Source: Polyangiaceae bacterium (lineage in GTDB: Bacteria > Myxococcota_A > Polyangia > Polyangiales > Polyangiaceae). From it: DNA of 64,000 bases. Below the pieces are notes generated by a model that ran no database searches, was not told the DNA's origin, and saw nothing but the letters and a program-made list of their open reading frames with translations. A program made the position numbers and the translations under genes. The stretch covers positions 1 to 64,000 of the forward strand of contig JAICQQ010000012.1 of the NCBI GenBank assembly GCA_025937785.1, given 5' to 3'. Shown in pieces: positions 18,136 to 26,547 of the stretch (its first letter is position 1; each line of letters opens with the position of its first letter).

Positions 18136-19052
18136 TCACTCGACGTGGACGAGGTTTCTGAGCTCGGCGAGCCGTTGCTCGACGTCCTTGACCGTCAGGT
18201 TGCGCACCCGGGTCGTGCCGACCCCCTCGACGCAGTACGACGCGACGGTCGCGGCGGTGAGCAGCGCGCGCCGGGTGGTGCCGCCGTCCACCGTGCCGAG
18301 CTGGGCCAGCTGCCCCAGGAGCGCGCCCGCGAAGGTATCCCCGGCGCCGGTCGGGTCGACCTCGTCCTCGAGCGGGAATGCCGGCACGAAGAAGATGCCG
18401 TCCGCGTCGAATAGCATGGCGCCGTACTCGCCGCGCTTGACGATCAGGCGCTCGGGCCCGAGCGACAAGATCGCTTGCGCCGCCCGCTTGATGTTGTGTT
18501 CGCCCGCAAACTGCCGCAGCTCTTCGTCGTTGATCACCATCGCCTGCACGCGCTTGATGACCCGTTCGAGCGCGGGACGCTCGATGTCGATCCACAGGTT
18601 CATCGTGTCGGCGGCGACGAACTTCGGAGCACGAACCTGGTCGAGCACCTCGAGCTGGAGCTCGGGTTGAATGTTGGCGAGCAGCACTACGGGGCTGTCC
18701 CGATAGCTGGGCGGCAGCTTGGGACGGAAGTCCGCGAACACGTTGAGCTCGGTCTTCAGCGTCTCGCGGCTGGCCAGGTTATCGGCGTAGCGCCCCGCCC
18801 AGCGAAAGGTCTTGCCGTTGGCTTTCTCGATGCCGCTGGTATCGACGTTGCGGGTTTCGAGATCGCTGATCACGCTGGCTGGAAAATCGTCACCGACCAC
18901 GGCCACGATCCGCGGGCGCGCGAAGAGGCTGGCAGCGATGGCGCTGTAGGTAGCAGCCCCCCCGATCACGTCGGGAAACTCACCGCTCGGTAAGACCAAG
19001 TCGTCGAACGCCATCGAGCCCACGATGAGGATAGGTTTGTCGGATTCAGCGC

Positions 19053-19056
<4 letters not shown>
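18136..19056 (-). CDS. PfkB-family kinase
   Basis: A 306-residue ribokinase/adenosine-kinase-fold (PfkB) enzyme. Family marks are the N-terminal GGAATYSA glycine motif (32-39), the substrate loop near residues 95-130, and DPTGAGDTFAG (234-244) with D240 as catalytic base. The ATG at 19056 overlaps the MTA phosphorylase stop by four bases, so translation is coupled. Because the upstream gene makes adenine and 5-methylthioribose-1-phosphate from MTA, the kinase may act on a nucleoside or sugar of this salvage route, but the specificity residues are not diagnostic. A longer open frame extends upstream into the phosphorylase gene and is not the real start. Confidence 0.88.
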
Positions 19057-19925
<869 letters not shown>

Positions 19926-19961: not shown

Positions 19962-20606
19962 TCACTCCCCGAGTTTCGCGCCGCTGAGCTCGCGGCCTTC
20001 CGCTAACAGCTGTTCGGCGAGCCGCGCGGCGCGCTGGCGGCGGCACTCTTCTGCGCGGAAGATCGAGGTGAGTTTGGTCGTCGCCTCGTCGATATCGTCG
20101 TTCACCAGGACGTAGTCGAACAGCCCGTAGTGCTCGATCTCGCGCGTCGCGACTTTGAAGCGGCGCTGTACGGTCGCTTCGTCTTCGCTGGCGCGCCCGC
20201 GCAGGCGCTGTTCCAGAATGGCCATGCTCGGCGGCAGAATGAAGATGGCGACCGCGTCGGGTTCGGCGCATTTGATCTGACGGGCGCCCTGGTGGTCGAT
20301 GTCGAAAATGATGCCGCGCAACTGCTGGTTCTTCGTGAGCTCGTTCTTGCTCGTGCCGTACAAGTTGCCGTGCACCTCGGCCCATTCGAGAAACTCGCCT
20401 TGCTCGATCAGGTTCGCGAACGTCGCTCGATCGACGAAATGGTATTCGCGTCCGTCTTGTTCGCTGCTACGCGGCGCGCGGGTGGTGTGCGAGACGCTGA
20501 ATGCAAGCCCCAGGTCTGCCTTCAAGAGTCTACCCGTGAGCGTCGTTTTCCCTGCCCCCGACGGGGACGAGATGATCAAAGGCAGGGGTCGCAAGCTATT
20601 CGACAT
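19962..20606 (-). CDS. gmk: Guanylate kinase
   Basis: A 214-residue guanylate kinase, converting GMP and ATP to GDP and ADP, essential for guanine nucleotide supply. The P-loop SSPSGAGKTT (13-22) and the GMP-binding segment with SVSHTTRAPR, REYHFVD, EFLEWAEVHGNLYGTS and DIDHQGARQIK are intact. The chosen ATG at 20606 overlaps yicC by 11 bases; a TTG/ATG further upstream would lengthen the overlap. Linkage to yicC is common in bacteria. The gene upstream of DUF507 in the same run (350-residue RelA-like protein) may make guanine alarmones, which target this enzyme in other phyla. Confidence 0.97.
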   Translation of the reverse strand: MSNSLRPLPLIISSPSGAGKTTLTGRLLKADLGLAFSVSHTTRAPRSSEQDGREYHFVDRATFANLIEQGEFLEWAEVHGNLYGTSKNELTKNQQLRGIIFDIDHQGARQIKCAEPDAVAIFILPPSMAILEQRLRGRASEDEATVQRRFKVATREIEHYGLFDYVLVNDDIDEATTKLTSIFRAEECRRQRAARLAEQLLAEGRELSGAKLGE

Positions 20607-21468
20607 TCTGCACCTGCTCACGCATGCGTTCGATCTCTGCTTTCATCTCCACGACTACGTGTGAAAGTTCTGCGTCCTGGCTCTTGGCTCCCACGGTGTT
20701 CACCTCTCGCCCCACTTCTTGCAGCAGAAAGTCGAGCCTCCTTCCGATCAGCTCGTCGCTCGCGAGCAGCCGCTCGATCTGGTCGAAATGGCTGTCGAGT
20801 CTGACGAGCTCTTCGGTGACGTCCGTGCGATCGGCGAGCAGCGCGAGTTCGAGCTCGAGTCGCCCCTGATCGATGGCGACGTTGCTGTCTTTCAGCAGGC
20901 GTTCCACGCGTTCTTCCAGGCGCGATCGGTGCAGGGGCACCAGGCGCTCTGCTTGCTCGCGAATCCGCTCGCGCAGCCCGCGGGCGAGTTCGAGCCGCCG
21001 TCCGAGCTCGCGGCCGAGCGCCGCGCCCTCTTGTTCGCGCATTTGATTCAGGTGCACCACTGCGGCTTTCAGCGCTGCGATCAGGGCGTTTTGGATCTGC
21101 TCCGACTGCATCGAAGAAGGAGCTTGGATCAGCTCTGGGATAGCCGTCACCGCCGAAACGGGCAGATCGGTCCCGGGGGCCAGCTCATCCCGCAGCGTTT
21201 GCAGGGCAAGATAAATGGAGCGTGCCCTGGCGATAGACAGATTGGGGGCGGGTAGGGCGGCGTCGTCGACACGCACGCCGATATCGAAGCGGCCGCGGCT
21301 GAGCAGCTCGCGTGCCTTCTGCTCGGTGAAGAACGCGTAGTCGGACAGCTCGACGGGTAAGCGCACCCGTACGTCGACGTAGCGATGGTTCAGCGCGCGC
21401 ACCTCGAGCGTCAAGCGCCCGTCGCCGAGCGGGGCTTCGCCCACACCGTAACCCGTCATGCTGCGCAT
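20596..21468 (-). CDS. yicC: YicC/YloC family endoribonuclease
   Basis: A 290-residue YicC-family protein. The family's N-terminal signature MRSMTGYG ... EVRALNHRYVDVRVRLP and the C-terminal EELVRLDSHFDQ ... GRRLDFLLQEVGREVNTVGAKSQD block are present. E. coli YicC was shown to have ribonuclease activity in RNA turnover; the function in this organism is assumed from family. It lies 12 bases after DUF507 and overlaps gmk, so DUF507-yicC-gmk is a tight operon. Confidence 0.95.
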   Translation of the reverse strand: MRSMTGYGVGEAPLGDGRLTLEVRALNHRYVDVRVRLPVELSDYAFFTEQKARELLSRGRFDIGVRVDDAALPAPNLSIARARSIYLALQTLRDELAPGTDLPVSAVTAIPELIQAPSSMQSEQIQNALIAALKAAVVHLNQMREQEGAALGRELGRRLELARGLRERIREQAERLVPLHRSRLEERVERLLKDSNVAIDQGRLELELALLADRTDVTEELVRLDSHFDQIERLLASDELIGRRLDFLLQEVGREVNTVGAKSQDAELSHVVVEMKAEIERMREQVQNVE

Positions 21469-21480
21469 GGGTTTTCGCGA

Positions 21481-21990
21481 TCAGAGGCCTTTGCGACGGC
21501 GGATGTCGTCCATCATGCGCTGATACTCGACTTCCCAGATCGCGGTGCCCTCCTCGACGTGTTTGAGTTGGCCGCGCACCGCTTCTTGCAGCTTCAGTTC
21601 GTCCGCGGCCGCCTTGCGCAGGGGCGTCCGCATTCTAAGGCGGAGCTGCACGTCCTCGGCGAACACCTCATCGACGTGCTGGGAGTACATGAGCATTTCG
21701 ACCAGTTGATCGAGCAAGTAGTCGATGGCGTCGTCCCCCAGCTTGATCTTACGGTCGCCGGCTACCAGCTTCTTCAGCTTGGCAAACTCGGTCGGCGGTA
21801 GGCCGCGCGCCGCGAGCAGCTCCTTGGCCTTCTCGTTGACCTCACTTTCGTCCCGAACGTATTGCCCGAGCACGGACTCGAGATCTGCTTGAACCTCACG
21901 GGGGGAGCTGGTTTCGATGTCGCCGGCACTGGTGAGCAGGCTCACCATCTCGGCGGCCATCGCTGGAATCTTGGCGCTGGAAAGCCGCAT
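21481..21990 (-). CDS. DUF507 family protein
   Basis: A 169-residue protein (ATG 21990) matching the DUF507 pattern: an N-terminal MRLSSAKIPAMAAEMV helix and repeated Glu/Asp/Lys-rich helices up to the C-terminal basic end DDIRRRKGL. DUF507 proteins are widespread in delta-type bacteria and Aquificae and have no established function. The gene is the first of the DUF507-yicC-gmk run. It has no signal peptide or membrane segment. The acidic residues and helices suggest a soluble, possibly RNA- or protein-binding role, but this is not shown. Confidence 0.85.
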   Translation of the reverse strand: MRLSSAKIPAMAAEMVSLLTSAGDIETSSPREVQADLESVLGQYVRDESEVNEKAKELLAARGLPPTEFAKLKKLVAGDRKIKLGDDAIDYLLDQLVEMLMYSQHVDEVFAEDVQLRLRMRTPLRKAAADELKLQEAVRGQLKHVEEGTAIWEVEYQRMMDDIRRRKGL

Positions 21991-22126
21991 CCCCAACTGT
22001 TACCCCATTTCTCGCCAGGTCGGATCTGCCGATCGGAGGCGAGGAGCGTTTTGCTACGCTTTTTCTTGGCGGATCCTAGGGGCTGGCGCGCGGCAAACGA
22101 GCGGGGCGGCGAACGACTCTGGCGTT

Positions 22127-23179
22127 TCAGCCGGTTTTTGGCGAGGGCTTACGAGCCCCCAGGCGGAGACGCCGGAAAACCGCTTCCTTCTGGCGCCGCT
22201 TATAGGCCTCGTGGCTCGCGTCGCCTTCTTCGTTGTGGGACTCGGTTTCGGCGTCCAAGATTTGGAATTCACACAACATATAGACGATGGGGCCGAGCTT
22301 CTTCGAGGCGGGGGGCGCCATCTCCATGATGTCTTTGGGCACCCGCACCGGGACGTCGCACACGAAATGAATCACCCGGTACGTCGGGGCGGTGAAGCGG
22401 TTGTCTGCAGGGATCAGCGTATCGTCCAGCGCCCCCTGAAATTTGTCCGTCATTTGGCGCAGGTGCGGGTGTGCATCGCAGTAGCTGCGGAAGTGAAAGA
22501 TCGTGTTCGTGCTCTCCTTCGGCACCACGTAGTTGAAGGGGAACAACCGCTCGGTGAGGTAGAGCAGCACTGGGAGGATGTCGTCTTGCGTCCGCGTGAC
22601 GATGCGAAACCGCAGCTTGTCGTAGAGCGCTGCCGCCGTCGCTTCGGGTTTGCTGAGGAGCTTCGTGTAGGTCGAGTCGAGGTTCTTGCGGCCCCCGATG
22701 AACTCCGTAATGGGAAACCCCTCGCTCAGCATCGTCCCGACGACCCGGTAAACCTTCTCTTCTACTAGGTGGAACAGGTCACGATCGCTGACGGGCAAGC
22801 GGAACAGCAGTTCGCGCCCTGCCAGGTGGTCGATGATGTGAATCGTCTTCAGGATCGTGCAGGCGCAGAGCTGCCGGTGCCCTTGGGTCGACGCCATCAG
22901 CAGCAGCTCTTCCAGCGAGGCCTGTTCGACCGGCTTGGGAATCGCGAAGGAAAAGTGCCGCCGCAGGTATGAAATCGCATCCTTCTTGATGCGATCGATG
23001 AACTCGGCGTCCTCGGGATCGTCGAGGTCGAGCTCGTGGTTTCGGACGAAGCTGCGGGCCTGCTCGGGAGCGGCGAAATTGAGTCGATGCCAGTCGATGA
23101 CCGAGCCACCTCGCAGAATCAGGCGCAGGGCTTCGACGTCGTGGAGCGTGAAGTCGTCGACGGACTTCAGCCTGGGCAA
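22127..23179 (-). CDS. RelA/SpoT-like nucleotidyltransferase-fold protein (TIGR04552-like)
   Basis: A 350-residue protein that I associate with the TIGR04552 family of myxobacteria, usually annotated without function. Its core has the order of motifs of (p)ppGpp synthetase domains: GRKNLDSTYTKL (163-174) for the R-x-K-S segment, YDKLRFRIV (186-194) for D-x-x-G-x-R-I-V, YRVIH (267-271) for the Y-x-x-x-H motif, and CEFQILDAETES then EEGDASHEAYK (303-327) for E-x-Q-I-R-T with the following acidic/His/Tyr stretch. The Asp and Glu expected to bind magnesium are kept; the Gly of D-x-x-G is Leu. Residues 1-150 are a separate helical domain. Start is TTG 23179. Upstream of DUF507, yicC and gmk on the same strand. 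Confidence 0.7.
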   Translation of the reverse strand: MPRLKSVDDFTLHDVEALRLILRGGSVIDWHRLNFAAPEQARSFVRNHELDLDDPEDAEFIDRIKKDAISYLRRHFSFAIPKPVEQASLEELLLMASTQGHRQLCACTILKTIHIIDHLAGRELLFRLPVSDRDLFHLVEEKVYRVVGTMLSEGFPITEFIGGRKNLDSTYTKLLSKPEATAAALYDKLRFRIVTRTQDDILPVLLYLTERLFPFNYVVPKESTNTIFHFRSYCDAHPHLRQMTDKFQGALDDTLIPADNRFTAPTYRVIHFVCDVPVRVPKDIMEMAPPASKKLGPIVYMLCEFQILDAETESHNEEGDASHEAYKRRQKEAVFRRLRLGARKPSPKTG

Positions 23180-23642: not shown

Positions 23643-24260
23643 ATGGATGAGACACTCGGGGCATTCATGACTCTGGACGAGCGTCAGCCAGTCACCGCCC
23701 AGGCCACCAGACCAGTCGAGCGTAGCGATCGAACAGCGGTGGGCGGCGCGCCCAGACGCTTGCAACCACTCGCCGGGTCCCTGATCGTCACGCTGTTCGC
23801 CGCGGCGTTGGCCGCCGCGTGCGGCGAGGAGGGCCTTCTGCCGACCACCGTGGATCCTGGGCCAGACTTCAATGTTTCCCTAGTCTTGTTCGATGAGAAC
23901 TTCTACTACTGCCAGATCGAACCGATGCTCTTTGCGCAGGGTTGTGGCCCCGGCAACGCGGCGGAAGGAGACCCCAGCAACGGTTGTCACCACAGCGTGA
24001 CGAGCTATCGCTTGATCGACTACTCTCCGCGGGTGGCCGAGGGTTGCAGCGGGAATTCGCCTGGGCCTGGGACACGCATCCCGGATTCCGCCCGACAGAA
24101 CTACCAACTCACCCAGGCGCGCATGAAACGCGACCCCGAGGCGGCCCCGCTCTTGCTGCGCCCCACGGGGCAGAGCGCGCACCCGCGCACCATCTTCAGC
24201 GAAGACAGCGCCGAAGCCGACCTCATTCGCCAGTGGGCCAATCAGTTCTCGAGTCAATGA
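23643..24260 (+). CDS. Lipoprotein with Cys/His-rich cytochrome-like segment
   Basis: A secreted lipoprotein of about 205 residues; the start is uncertain (ATG at 23607, 23643 or 23667). The export signal runs GSLIVTLFAAALAAAC, with the lipidated Cys just before GEEG. The mature part has FYYCQIEPMLFAQGCG ... GDPSNGCHHS, a pattern like the heme-attachment region of planctomycete-type c cytochromes (EPxFxxxCxxCH) but with the two Cys about 15 residues apart, so it is not a standard CxxCH. Its stop codon overlaps the ATG of the SH3 gene (ATGA). It is the first gene of a four-gene plus-strand operon with DUF4266 and DUF3570. Confidence 0.65.
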   Translation: MDETLGAFMTLDERQPVTAQATRPVERSDRTAVGGAPRRLQPLAGSLIVTLFAAALAAACGEEGLLPTTVDPGPDFNVSLVLFDENFYYCQIEPMLFAQGCGPGNAAEGDPSNGCHHSVTSYRLIDYSPRVAEGCSGNSPGPGTRIPDSARQNYQLTQARMKRDPEAAPLLLRPTGQSAHPRTIFSEDSAEADLIRQWANQFSSQ

Positions 24261-25030
24261 GAGCCGTCGATTCCGTAGCGGTGTGCGCGGGGCTCGTGAC
24301 GCTCCTGGTGCAGGGCGGCCTGGCGCGAGCTGCCGAAGCCGGCGAAGCACCCGAAGCCTTTGCGCGCGTGATCGTCGCAGAGACGGAGCTGCGCGCGGGC
24401 CCTGGCATTTCACACCGGGTGATCCACACGGCCCAGCGGGGCGACACGTTCTTCCTGCAAGGCCGCGCGGGCAGCGACTACTGGCTCGAGGTGGTGATGG
24501 ACGACGGTCGCACCGGGTACATTTTGGGCGATACCGTCGAGACCGTAGCTGTCGATCCCGCGGCGGAGGGTGCGCCGGAGAAGCCCGGCGTCTTCGCACC
24601 ACCGGCGCTCGAGGCGGCCTGGGGCGGCTTCACCATGATGGGCGGCGTGTTCGATCGGGACGGCTACATGGAGTTTCGTCCCCAGCTGGTGATAGGTCCC
24701 GCGATCGCCTTCGAACCCTACGTGGGGCTTGCCCTGCAAGAGCAAGCGCGACGCCTGGTGTACGGCGGCGCGGGCACTCTGAATCTGGCGCCAGACTGGT
24801 CGGTGGCCCCTTTCGTCACGATCGGCGTCGGAGGCATTCACGAAGCGCCGCGCGACGAATTCATCCAAACGTCGAAGCAGTCATTTCACGCACGCGCAGG
24901 CGGGGGAATCTTGGTGTCACTGCGTTGGCGCATCTTGTTCCGGCTCGAAGCCGCGAACGTGGTGCTGTTCACGGAGGATACCTACGCGAACGTACAGAGT
25001 TATTTCGGAGGCTTGGGCACCTATTTTTAG
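24257..25030 (+). CDS. SH3-domain protein with beta-barrel-like C-terminus
   Basis: A 257-residue exported protein. The signal peptide ends near GLARAAEA. Residues about 35-95 form a bacterial SH3 domain (ARVIVAETELRAGPGISHRVI, then GDTFFLQGRAGSDYWLEV and TGYILGDTVE), which often binds peptidoglycan. After a linker, residues 115-257 are Gly/aromatic-rich alternating strands (GGVFDRDGYMEFRPQLVIG, YVGLALQEQ, VAPFVTIGVGG, ending GGLGTYF), consistent with an outer-membrane barrel. It starts inside the previous stop (ATGA) and precedes DUF4266 by 27 bases. The combination could tie an outer-membrane barrel to the cell wall. Confidence 0.72.
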   Translation: MRAVDSVAVCAGLVTLLVQGGLARAAEAGEAPEAFARVIVAETELRAGPGISHRVIHTAQRGDTFFLQGRAGSDYWLEVVMDDGRTGYILGDTVETVAVDPAAEGAPEKPGVFAPPALEAAWGGFTMMGGVFDRDGYMEFRPQLVIGPAIAFEPYVGLALQEQARRLVYGGAGTLNLAPDWSVAPFVTIGVGGIHEAPRDEFIQTSKQSFHARAGGGILVSLRWRILFRLEAANVVLFTEDTYANVQSYFGGLGTYF

Positions 25031-25057: not shown

Positions 25058-25291
25058 ATGGAAAACCATCTGGCAGGTAAGTGGGTGAGGTGCGTGGCAG
25101 CGGTCGCGGTGCTCGCGCTGGGGACGGGCTGTGTGACGGTTCGACCCGAACAGAAGGCGATTCTTGCGGATCCGACCATGCAGTTCGAAAGCAACCCGCT
25201 CGAAGAAAGCGCGCGGCAACACGTCCTCGAGAATCGAGAGGCGGCCTACGGAGGTGGCTCCGTGCAAGGTGGTGGATGCGGCTGCAATTGA
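25058..25291 (+). CDS. DUF4266 lipoprotein
   Basis: A 77-residue lipoprotein of the DUF4266 family, recognised by a lipobox (LGTGC, lipidated Cys 25), the core LADPTMQFESNPLEESARQHVLENREAA and the glycine-rich tail ending GGGCGCN. DUF4266 proteins are typically encoded immediately before DUF3570 proteins, often with a thioredoxin and an ApbE-type FMN transferase in the same cluster; neither partner is seen here. The last 16 bases overlap the DUF3570 start. Function unknown. Confidence 0.9.
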   Translation: MENHLAGKWVRCVAAVAVLALGTGCVTVRPEQKAILADPTMQFESNPLEESARQHVLENREAAYGGGSVQGGGCGCN

Positions 25292-26547
25292 TCCCGAGCG
25301 CGCGGGCGCGTTCGAACCGTTGCCGGTGCTCGCTCGCGTGGCTTTCGGTCGCGCTCGGCGCGCTCCTGGCGCCCGCGGCTCGAGCACAGGTGGCCGACGT
25401 GGACGTACGCACGTCGGTGTTCAACGAGCCGTCGGCGACCAGCAAGCTGACGGTGATTCACCCGGGCGCTGCCGTGGTCGTGCGCCCGACCTCTTGGCTC
25501 GGCGTCAACGCCAGCTACGACGCCGACATAGTCACCGGCGCTACCGAGGCCGTGAAACGGGGCCGATTGGCGGACATCGTGACGCAGGCGACCGATTTTT
25601 CCGACACCCGGCACGTGGTGGGAGGCGGCTTTAGCATCACGCGTGCCAGCACCGAGCTCGCGGCCAACTACGCATACGGCTTCGAGAGCGACTACAAGTC
25701 GCAGTCGTTCGCGGTCGCGGCGGGCACCGACTTCTTGCAGAAGAACACCAACGTCAAGCTGTCGTACGCGCGGGGTTTCGACGAGGTCTGCACCACGGCC
25801 TACGCCGAGACCGATGCCCCCTCGAACCGACAAGCGCTCACGAGCTCCGACGGGTGCTTTGCGAATGCCGATGACCGCGCGGCGCGGGAGATCAACCTGG
25901 ACACGTTCCAGGCAGCTTGGAACCAAAACTGGACGCCGGAGTTGAGTATGCAGGTGGTGCTCACCGGCGCGCTGCAGAACGGGTTTCTCGAGAATCCGTA
26001 CCGATCGGTGGAGATCGCAGCCGCGGGTGACGCAGCGCTCGAAAACCACCCCGACAACCGCGCGCGCGGGGCGCTGGCGCTCCGCTTCAAGTACTACGTC
26101 CGCCCCATCAAGACGGCGATCGGCTTCGGCGTGCGCGGCTACCGCGACACCTGGGACATCCTGGGGCAAACCTACGAGCTCAGCGGCGAACGCTACTTGT
26201 TTCCTTGGTTGAGAGTGTTGGTTCGTGGCCGCTACTACGTTCAGACCGGCGCCCTCTTCTGGAGCGACGACTACACTGGCGGCGAGCCGGAGACGGGACC
26301 GCGGGGCCAGTACTGGTCGGGCGATCGCGAGCTGTCACCGCTCGCCAGCTACAGCGCGGGTGCTCGGGTCCAGCTAGAGAAGACTGCGGCCGGCGACGCG
26401 CGCATCCTCGGCGCCTTCCGGCAGCTGCGCGCGGCCGCCGCCTTCGACGGTATCAAGACCGATCTGAAGGAGTTCACCTGGTCCGGCGAAACTCCGGACG
26501 ACACCATCTCGCTGCTGCTTACCCTGACCGCCGGCGCGTCCTTTTGA
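25276..26547 (+). CDS. DUF3570 outer-membrane protein
   Basis: A 423-residue exported beta-rich protein of the DUF3570 family. The ATG at 25276 begins inside the DUF4266 gene and gives a signal peptide ending near ARAQVADV. The body alternates strand segments (GVNASYDADIVTG, VGGGFSITRASTELAANYAYGFE, ALRFKYYVRPIKTAIGFGVRGYRD, WLRVLVRGRYYVQTGALFW) and ends with TLTAGASF, a terminal Phe typical of outer-membrane barrels. The Cys pair in DEVCTTAY ... SDGCFAN may form a disulfide. The DUF4266-DUF3570 pairing is a known gene pairing, but the biological role of the pair is not established. Confidence 0.9.
   Translation: MRLQLIPSARARSNRCRCSLAWLSVALGALLAPAARAQVADVDVRTSVFNEPSATSKLTVIHPGAAVVVRPTSWLGVNASYDADIVTGATEAVKRGRLADIVTQATDFSDTRHVVGGGFSITRASTELAANYAYGFESDYKSQSFAVAAGTDFLQKNTNVKLSYARGFDEVCTTAYAETDAPSNRQALTSSDGCFANADDRAAREINLDTFQAAWNQNWTPELSMQVVLTGALQNGFLENPYRSVEIAAAGDAALENHPDNRARGALALRFKYYVRPIKTAIGFGVRGYRDTWDILGQTYELSGERYLFPWLRVLVRGRYYVQTGALFWSDDYTGGEPETGPRGQYWSGDRELSPLASYSAGARVQLEKTAAGDARILGAFRQLRAAAAFDGIKTDLKEFTWSGETPDDTISLLLTLTAGASF

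Follow-up and report, generated by a model that had tools for sequence, protein, structure and literature searches.

RSH enzymes govern growth and development as well as survival during starvation. On the donor side of the synthetase reaction, the crystal structure of FaRel2 shows that K66, S70, K74, D90, R95, E145, and Q147 bind ATP and Mg2+, and that R64, the arginine of the RxK motif, stacks on the donor adenine (PMC11782079). On the acceptor side, the syn2 to syn4 positions read AVR, SxH, and I-R in (p)ppGpp synthetases and RYT, GxN, and YH in (p)ppApp synthetases; swapping these motifs left specificity unchanged (PMC12226406), so that the acceptor is unreadable from sequence. A census published in 2011 divided RSH proteins into 30 subgroups, one of them being bdRel, a group of small alarmone synthetases (SAS) from beta- and delta-proteobacteria (PMC3153485).

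The gene analyzed here lies in the window (the whole 64,000-nucleotide stretch of DNA that was studied) together with a block of housekeeping genes (cf. Table 1). Its start codon is uncertain, and N-termini vary among the relatives. The encoded protein is a full-length member, with no difference, of two NCBIfam models, TIGR04552 (E 1.3e-100, 337.2 bits, residues 13-338, above the curated 125-bit cut-off) and TIGR04562 (E 3.5e-97). Neither model has an assigned function, in agreement with the preliminary description. No biochemical data on the TIGR04552 family were found in the open-access literature, where TIGR04562 did not appear and TIGR04552 was met only in the mutation table of a single study, as a gene annotated in Bdellovibrio sp. 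NC01 in which a small indel had reached high frequency in one evolved population (PMC9888234); because of this indel, the gene may be dispensable in that population. From comparison of sequences and from structural modeling, we propose to place TIGR04552 among the RelA/SpoT synthetases as a divergent branch whose members most likely act as ATP-dependent 3'-pyrophosphokinases on a non-standard acceptor, a reading to which we give a probability of about 0.6.

Table 1. Position of the TIGR04552 gene, its predicted domains, and its neighbors in the window
Feature	Position	Strand	Basis or remark
TIGR04552-family protein, 350 aa	22127..23179	minus	TTG start; coordinates include stop
RSH synthetase-like catalytic domain, residues 156-340	22160..22714	minus	PF04607, hhalign, PDB profile search, Foldseek, conservation in 121 sequences
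All-helical N-terminal domain, residues 1-155	22715..23179	minus	AF2 model; without PDB match by profile or fold
DUF507 protein, downstream neighbor	21481..21996	minus	PF04368 E 3.3e-29; order kept in Polyangiaceae-type loci
YicC/YloC family endoribonuclease	20596..21468	minus	TIGR00255 E 7.3e-63
Guanylate kinase (gmk)	19962..20621	minus	TIGR03263 E 1.3e-64
S-methyl-5'-thioadenosine phosphorylase	19053..19925	minus	TIGR01694 E 2.8e-92
PfkB-family kinase	18136..19083, start approximate (mechanical ORF to 19530)	minus	PF00294 E 3.4e-29

The C-terminal part of the protein (residues 156-340) is predicted to be a RelA/SpoT-type synthetase domain with the Pol-beta-like RSH fold, an assignment on which four lines agree, namely Pfam, profile-profile comparison, a profile search of the PDB, and AlphaFold2 combined with Foldseek. 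The sole Pfam match is RelA_SpoT (PF04607; E 3.9e-4, residues 165-330, positions 4-112 of the 113 in the profile), and at 21.1 bits it stays under the gathering cut-off of 27 bits. The same model is matched by 36 of 54 homologues (best E 2.2e-7), in which other Pfam models gave weak matches in single members only, and a whole-genome search reported three relatives above the cut-off (G037, G062, and G007, the last only with frame neighbors counted). When compared with 177,635 distinct PDB sequences, the family profile found nothing but RSH synthetases at E < 0.05, including Streptococcus Rel (1vj7, E 8.7e-5), YwaC/SAS2 (E 2.2e-4), and further Rel/RelA chains, while hhalign aligned residues 145-329 with the canonical Rel synthetase domain at E 4.4e-9 and a probability of 96%. 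The preliminary description had matched the RelA/SpoT synthetase motifs in order, including the metal-binding Asp and Glu, and the alignment with Rel bears this out: GGRKNLDSTYTK, DKLRFR, YRVIH, EFQILD, and GDASHEAYK of the window protein are collinear with GRAKNIYSIYRK, DIIAFR, YQSLH, EVQIRT, and GVAAHWKYK of the canonical enzyme. Since the family profile retrieves only RSH synthetases from the PDB at this threshold, the shared order of motifs exceeds chance. The comparison of a predicted structure with RelA/SAS synthetases, which the same description had put forward as a check, likewise recovered the RSH fold. In the AlphaFold2 model of the full-length protein (pLDDT 93.8, pTM 0.90), the 40 best Foldseek matches in the PDB, all with E <= 0.001, were (p)ppGpp synthetases (RelQ/SAS1, RelP/SAS2, Rel, and RelA). 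The TM-scores over the full-length model were low (0.24-0.31 by query), which is ascribed to the insertions and the extra domain. Furthermore, the window protein gave no HD_4 Pfam match, i.e., its synthetase domain comes without an HD hydrolase domain, as in small alarmone synthetases.

The catalytic-domain residues of interest are K165, S169, K173, D187, R192, Y267, E304, Q306, H323, Y326, and K327. In an alignment of 121 TIGR04552 homologues, K165, K173, R192, E304, Q306, Y326, and K327 are invariant, S169 and D187 are each kept in 120, and Y267, the acceptor Tyr, is Y in 106 and F in 15. The residues of FaRel2 that bind ATP and Mg2+ correspond, by alignment, to K165, S169, K173, D187, R192, E304, and Q306, and all features by which the superfamily is recognized are present, that is, the catalytic Asp for Mg2+, the Glu and Gln of E-x-Q, and the phosphate-binding K-x3-S-x3-K. 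Because these donor and metal residues are essentially invariant, a dead enzyme appears unlikely. The Arg of RxK is missing, position 163 being G in 96 and S in 18 of the 121 sequences, and an Arg follows one position later in 112 of them (RxK having become GRK); ATP as the donor is uncertain because of this replacement by Gly and the incomplete conservation of the next-position Arg. In the mechanism that we propose, ATP would occupy the donor site with its triphosphate held by K165, S169, and K173, D187 would hold Mg2+, R192, E304, and Q306 would serve adenine binding and catalysis, and an acceptor stacked against Y267 would receive the beta-gamma pyrophosphate of ATP on its 3'-OH.

This acceptor is probably other than the usual GDP/GTP, since the guanine- and phosphate-recognition motifs are replaced and the acceptor side is enlarged, before the acceptor Tyr, by an insertion of about 45 residues in which N225 and N260 are invariant. 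At the syn2 to syn4 positions, the family has RFR (GVR in a distant branch), then VIH, VIN, or AIQ, and finally a motif without Arg that is followed by the invariant D309, QIRT of the canonical enzymes having become QxxD. Neither the guanosine signatures of (p)ppGpp synthetases nor those of the (p)ppApp synthetases (Apk/Tas1) are therefore found. The Y-x-x-x-H pointed out in the preliminary description is indeed present in the window protein, but its His varies among H, Q, and N across the family, and the guanine-recognition signature is lost. These residues bear on whether the protein might make (p)ppGpp like an ordinary synthetase, its motifs having drifted, and so supply ppGpp in addition to the one long Rel that the genome encodes. 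The donor site and the acceptor-stacking Tyr are conserved, as would be expected of such an enzyme, and the gmk neighborhood recalls the gmk-rpoZ-spoT operon of Escherichia coli; however, the guanosine hallmarks, SxH and the Arg of QIRT, are gone, the replacement D309 is invariant, and the family lacks the RFKDY stretch seen in canonical Rel. Moreover, a single canonical RelA_SpoT protein is encoded elsewhere in the window genome, in a frame of 720 aa that includes an HD domain as well; as this long Rel unites synthetase and hydrolase domains, the window protein is not the housekeeping Rel. On balance, we consider an ordinary (p)ppGpp synthetase unlikely.

The altered Arg of RxK would also fit a nucleotide-binding regulator or sensor devoid of catalysis, and RSH pseudo-synthetase domains do exist, e.g., that of Acinetobacter SpoT, in which the catalytic Asp and Gln are lost (PMC9974481). 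Unlike in Acinetobacter SpoT, D187 as well as E304 and Q306 are kept at the above frequencies over the whole phylum, which makes a pseudo-synthetase rather improbable. We give still less weight to a protein that has kept the fold and changed its chemistry, performing, for instance, nucleotidyl transfer or transfer to a non-nucleotide acceptor; the changed acceptor side, the large insertion with N225 and N260, the invariant D309, and the new N-terminal domain would all agree with this, yet the donor site has retained almost every residue that positions the beta-phosphate for attack.

The N-terminal part (residues 1-155), modeled alone with AF2, is all-helical (pLDDT 86.7), and G24, S26, D29, C107, L110, and H118 are conserved in it. 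Foldseek gave no PDB match to this domain at E < 1, and a sequence-profile search of the PDB returned nothing convincing, the best value being 0.014, to a protein named E8; on these two results, a degenerate HD hydrolase or another known fold was rejected. In the proposed 3'-pyrophosphokinase, this domain may either regulate the enzyme or aid the binding of the acceptor.

The preliminary description had placed the gene on the same strand as those for guanylate kinase, MTA phosphorylase, and a PfkB kinase, which is correct, and DUF507 and YicC genes are found there as well (cf. Table 1). It had also put forward linkage to gmk in other Myxococcota as a check, and such linkage was seen inside the gene's own family but not outside it. 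A downstream gmk on the same strand accompanies the gene in 29/29 nearest loci with enough flank, in 43/56 of all loci from a scan of the genome collection that used closer family members as the query alignment, and in 4/4 sampled genomes of the same family, but in 0/28 loci from other families. Many gmk-linked loci lack the MTA phosphorylase. Among 51 TIGR04552 loci without gmk, lon is nearby in 17 and divergent in 16 of these; outside the gene's own family, the neighbor is often lon and otherwise not consistent. Divergent Lon protease genes of this kind are seen, e.g., at L036:5199-7853, in L042 and L044, and in others. All-against-all clustering of neighbors was done on a smaller set, and many clusters were antisense shadows, which were resolved with Pfam. 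The gmk linkage thus reflects gene order at the level of the family, and the gmk operon was rejected as a general functional link. With the linkage confined in this way, lon often taking its place elsewhere, and the block holding yicC and DUF507 too, the suggested role in the control of purine supply is weakened and we do not retain it. Near the TIGR04552 gene, an SH3_3 protein (23942-25030) is followed by a DUF3570 protein (25081-26547, plus strand, E 9.4e-24).

TIGR04552 is present in 169 of 284 Myxococcota genomes, nearly always as a single copy, and was found in none of 14 control genomes. Ordered by kinship, it occurs in 22/22 genomes of the window's own family (the window genome included), 22/22 of its order, and 13/15 of the rest of the class, and named loci come from Polyangium, Sorangium, Labilithrix, Sandaracinaceae, and many Polyangiaceae MAGs. 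A small tree built from 139 columns of the synthetase core, readable as separation only, sets the family off on a long branch from Rel and from the phylum's other synthetases, as a clade of its own with a support of 0.998. The assembly of the window genome is incomplete (94.9% complete, 8.6% contamination); contamination of the window contig is nevertheless unlikely, because the gmk-linked context matches that of close Polyangiaceae relatives, whose TIGR04552 proteins are 69-77% identical. The same genome encodes a 469-aa frame (G000:C144:4820-5695) with tandem HD_4 matches of 59.5 and 26.2 bits, similar to small alarmone hydrolases, which is a possible partner hydrolase. Other Myxococcota (L183-L188) have several unrelated short synthetases, about 210-350 aa long, whose QIRT-like motifs are canonical. 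It is conceivable, and we put it forward tentatively, that TIGR04552 might be a core enzyme of the whole class, with relatives in Bdellovibrio, that acts beside canonical Rel/ppGpp, its product being either a 3'-pyrophosphorylated signal not yet described or a modified acceptor, RNA or metabolite.

Searches of plasmids and of viral contigs gave no match to TIGR04552 homologues, and carriage on plasmids was rejected on this ground, as was a defence system for lack of any PADLOC or PHROG match. Phage origin was rejected too, because the viral-contig scan was empty and the only homologue in a phage record, that of Microcystis phage MaAM05, sits among bacterial genes. This record (MW495066.1, 273,876 bp) looks like a fragment of a bacterial chromosome deposited as phage; at 118543-129607, the homologue, which also matches RelA_SpoT, lies beside glyS, secF, secDF, mtgA, and gatD. 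Least probable is that the protein acts as a toxin or in defence, in the manner of toxSAS, by making (p)ppApp or pyrophosphorylating tRNA. It would come from the same superfamily, adenine-directed enzymes likewise lack SxH, and VxN/AxQ are nearer to their GxN (PMC12226406); yet the searches just mentioned were empty and, in place of a paired or fused antitoxin or immunity gene and a patchy mobile distribution, we see a near-universal single-copy core gene of the class with housekeeping neighbors (DUF507/yicC/gmk or lon) and no antitoxin.

These findings indicate a branch of RSH enzymes that is conserved, seems capable of catalysis, and has an altered recognition of its substrate; nearly every sampled genome of a class of social and predatory bacteria contains it. 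The family, still labeled by number only, can now be given a fold and a probable catalytic type, and it offers a direct way to seek a new nucleotide signal or RNA modification. Compared with known systems, TIGR04552 (i) shares with toxSAS/FaRel2, CapRel, and Apk/Tas1 the donor-site residues (by alignment with FaRel2) and acceptor motifs that are not those for guanosine, but differs in its core-gene distribution, its lack of an antitoxin neighbor, its syn2 to syn4 residues, and its extra domain; (ii) shares with long RSH enzymes (Rel/RelA) the synthetase core and the final H-x-x-Y-K motif, whereas HD, TGS, and ACT domains are lacking, the specificity motifs are changed, and the clade is separate; and (iii) resembles RelQ/SAS1 and RelP/SAS2 in its synthetase fold, which gave the best Foldseek matches, in the K/S/K, D, R, and E-x-Q of the donor site, in the acceptor Tyr, and in having no HD hydrolase domain, while its identity with them in structural alignments is 13-19%, RxK, SxH, and QIRT are replaced, and a novel N-terminal domain of 155 aa and the insertion of about 45 residues before the acceptor Tyr are added.
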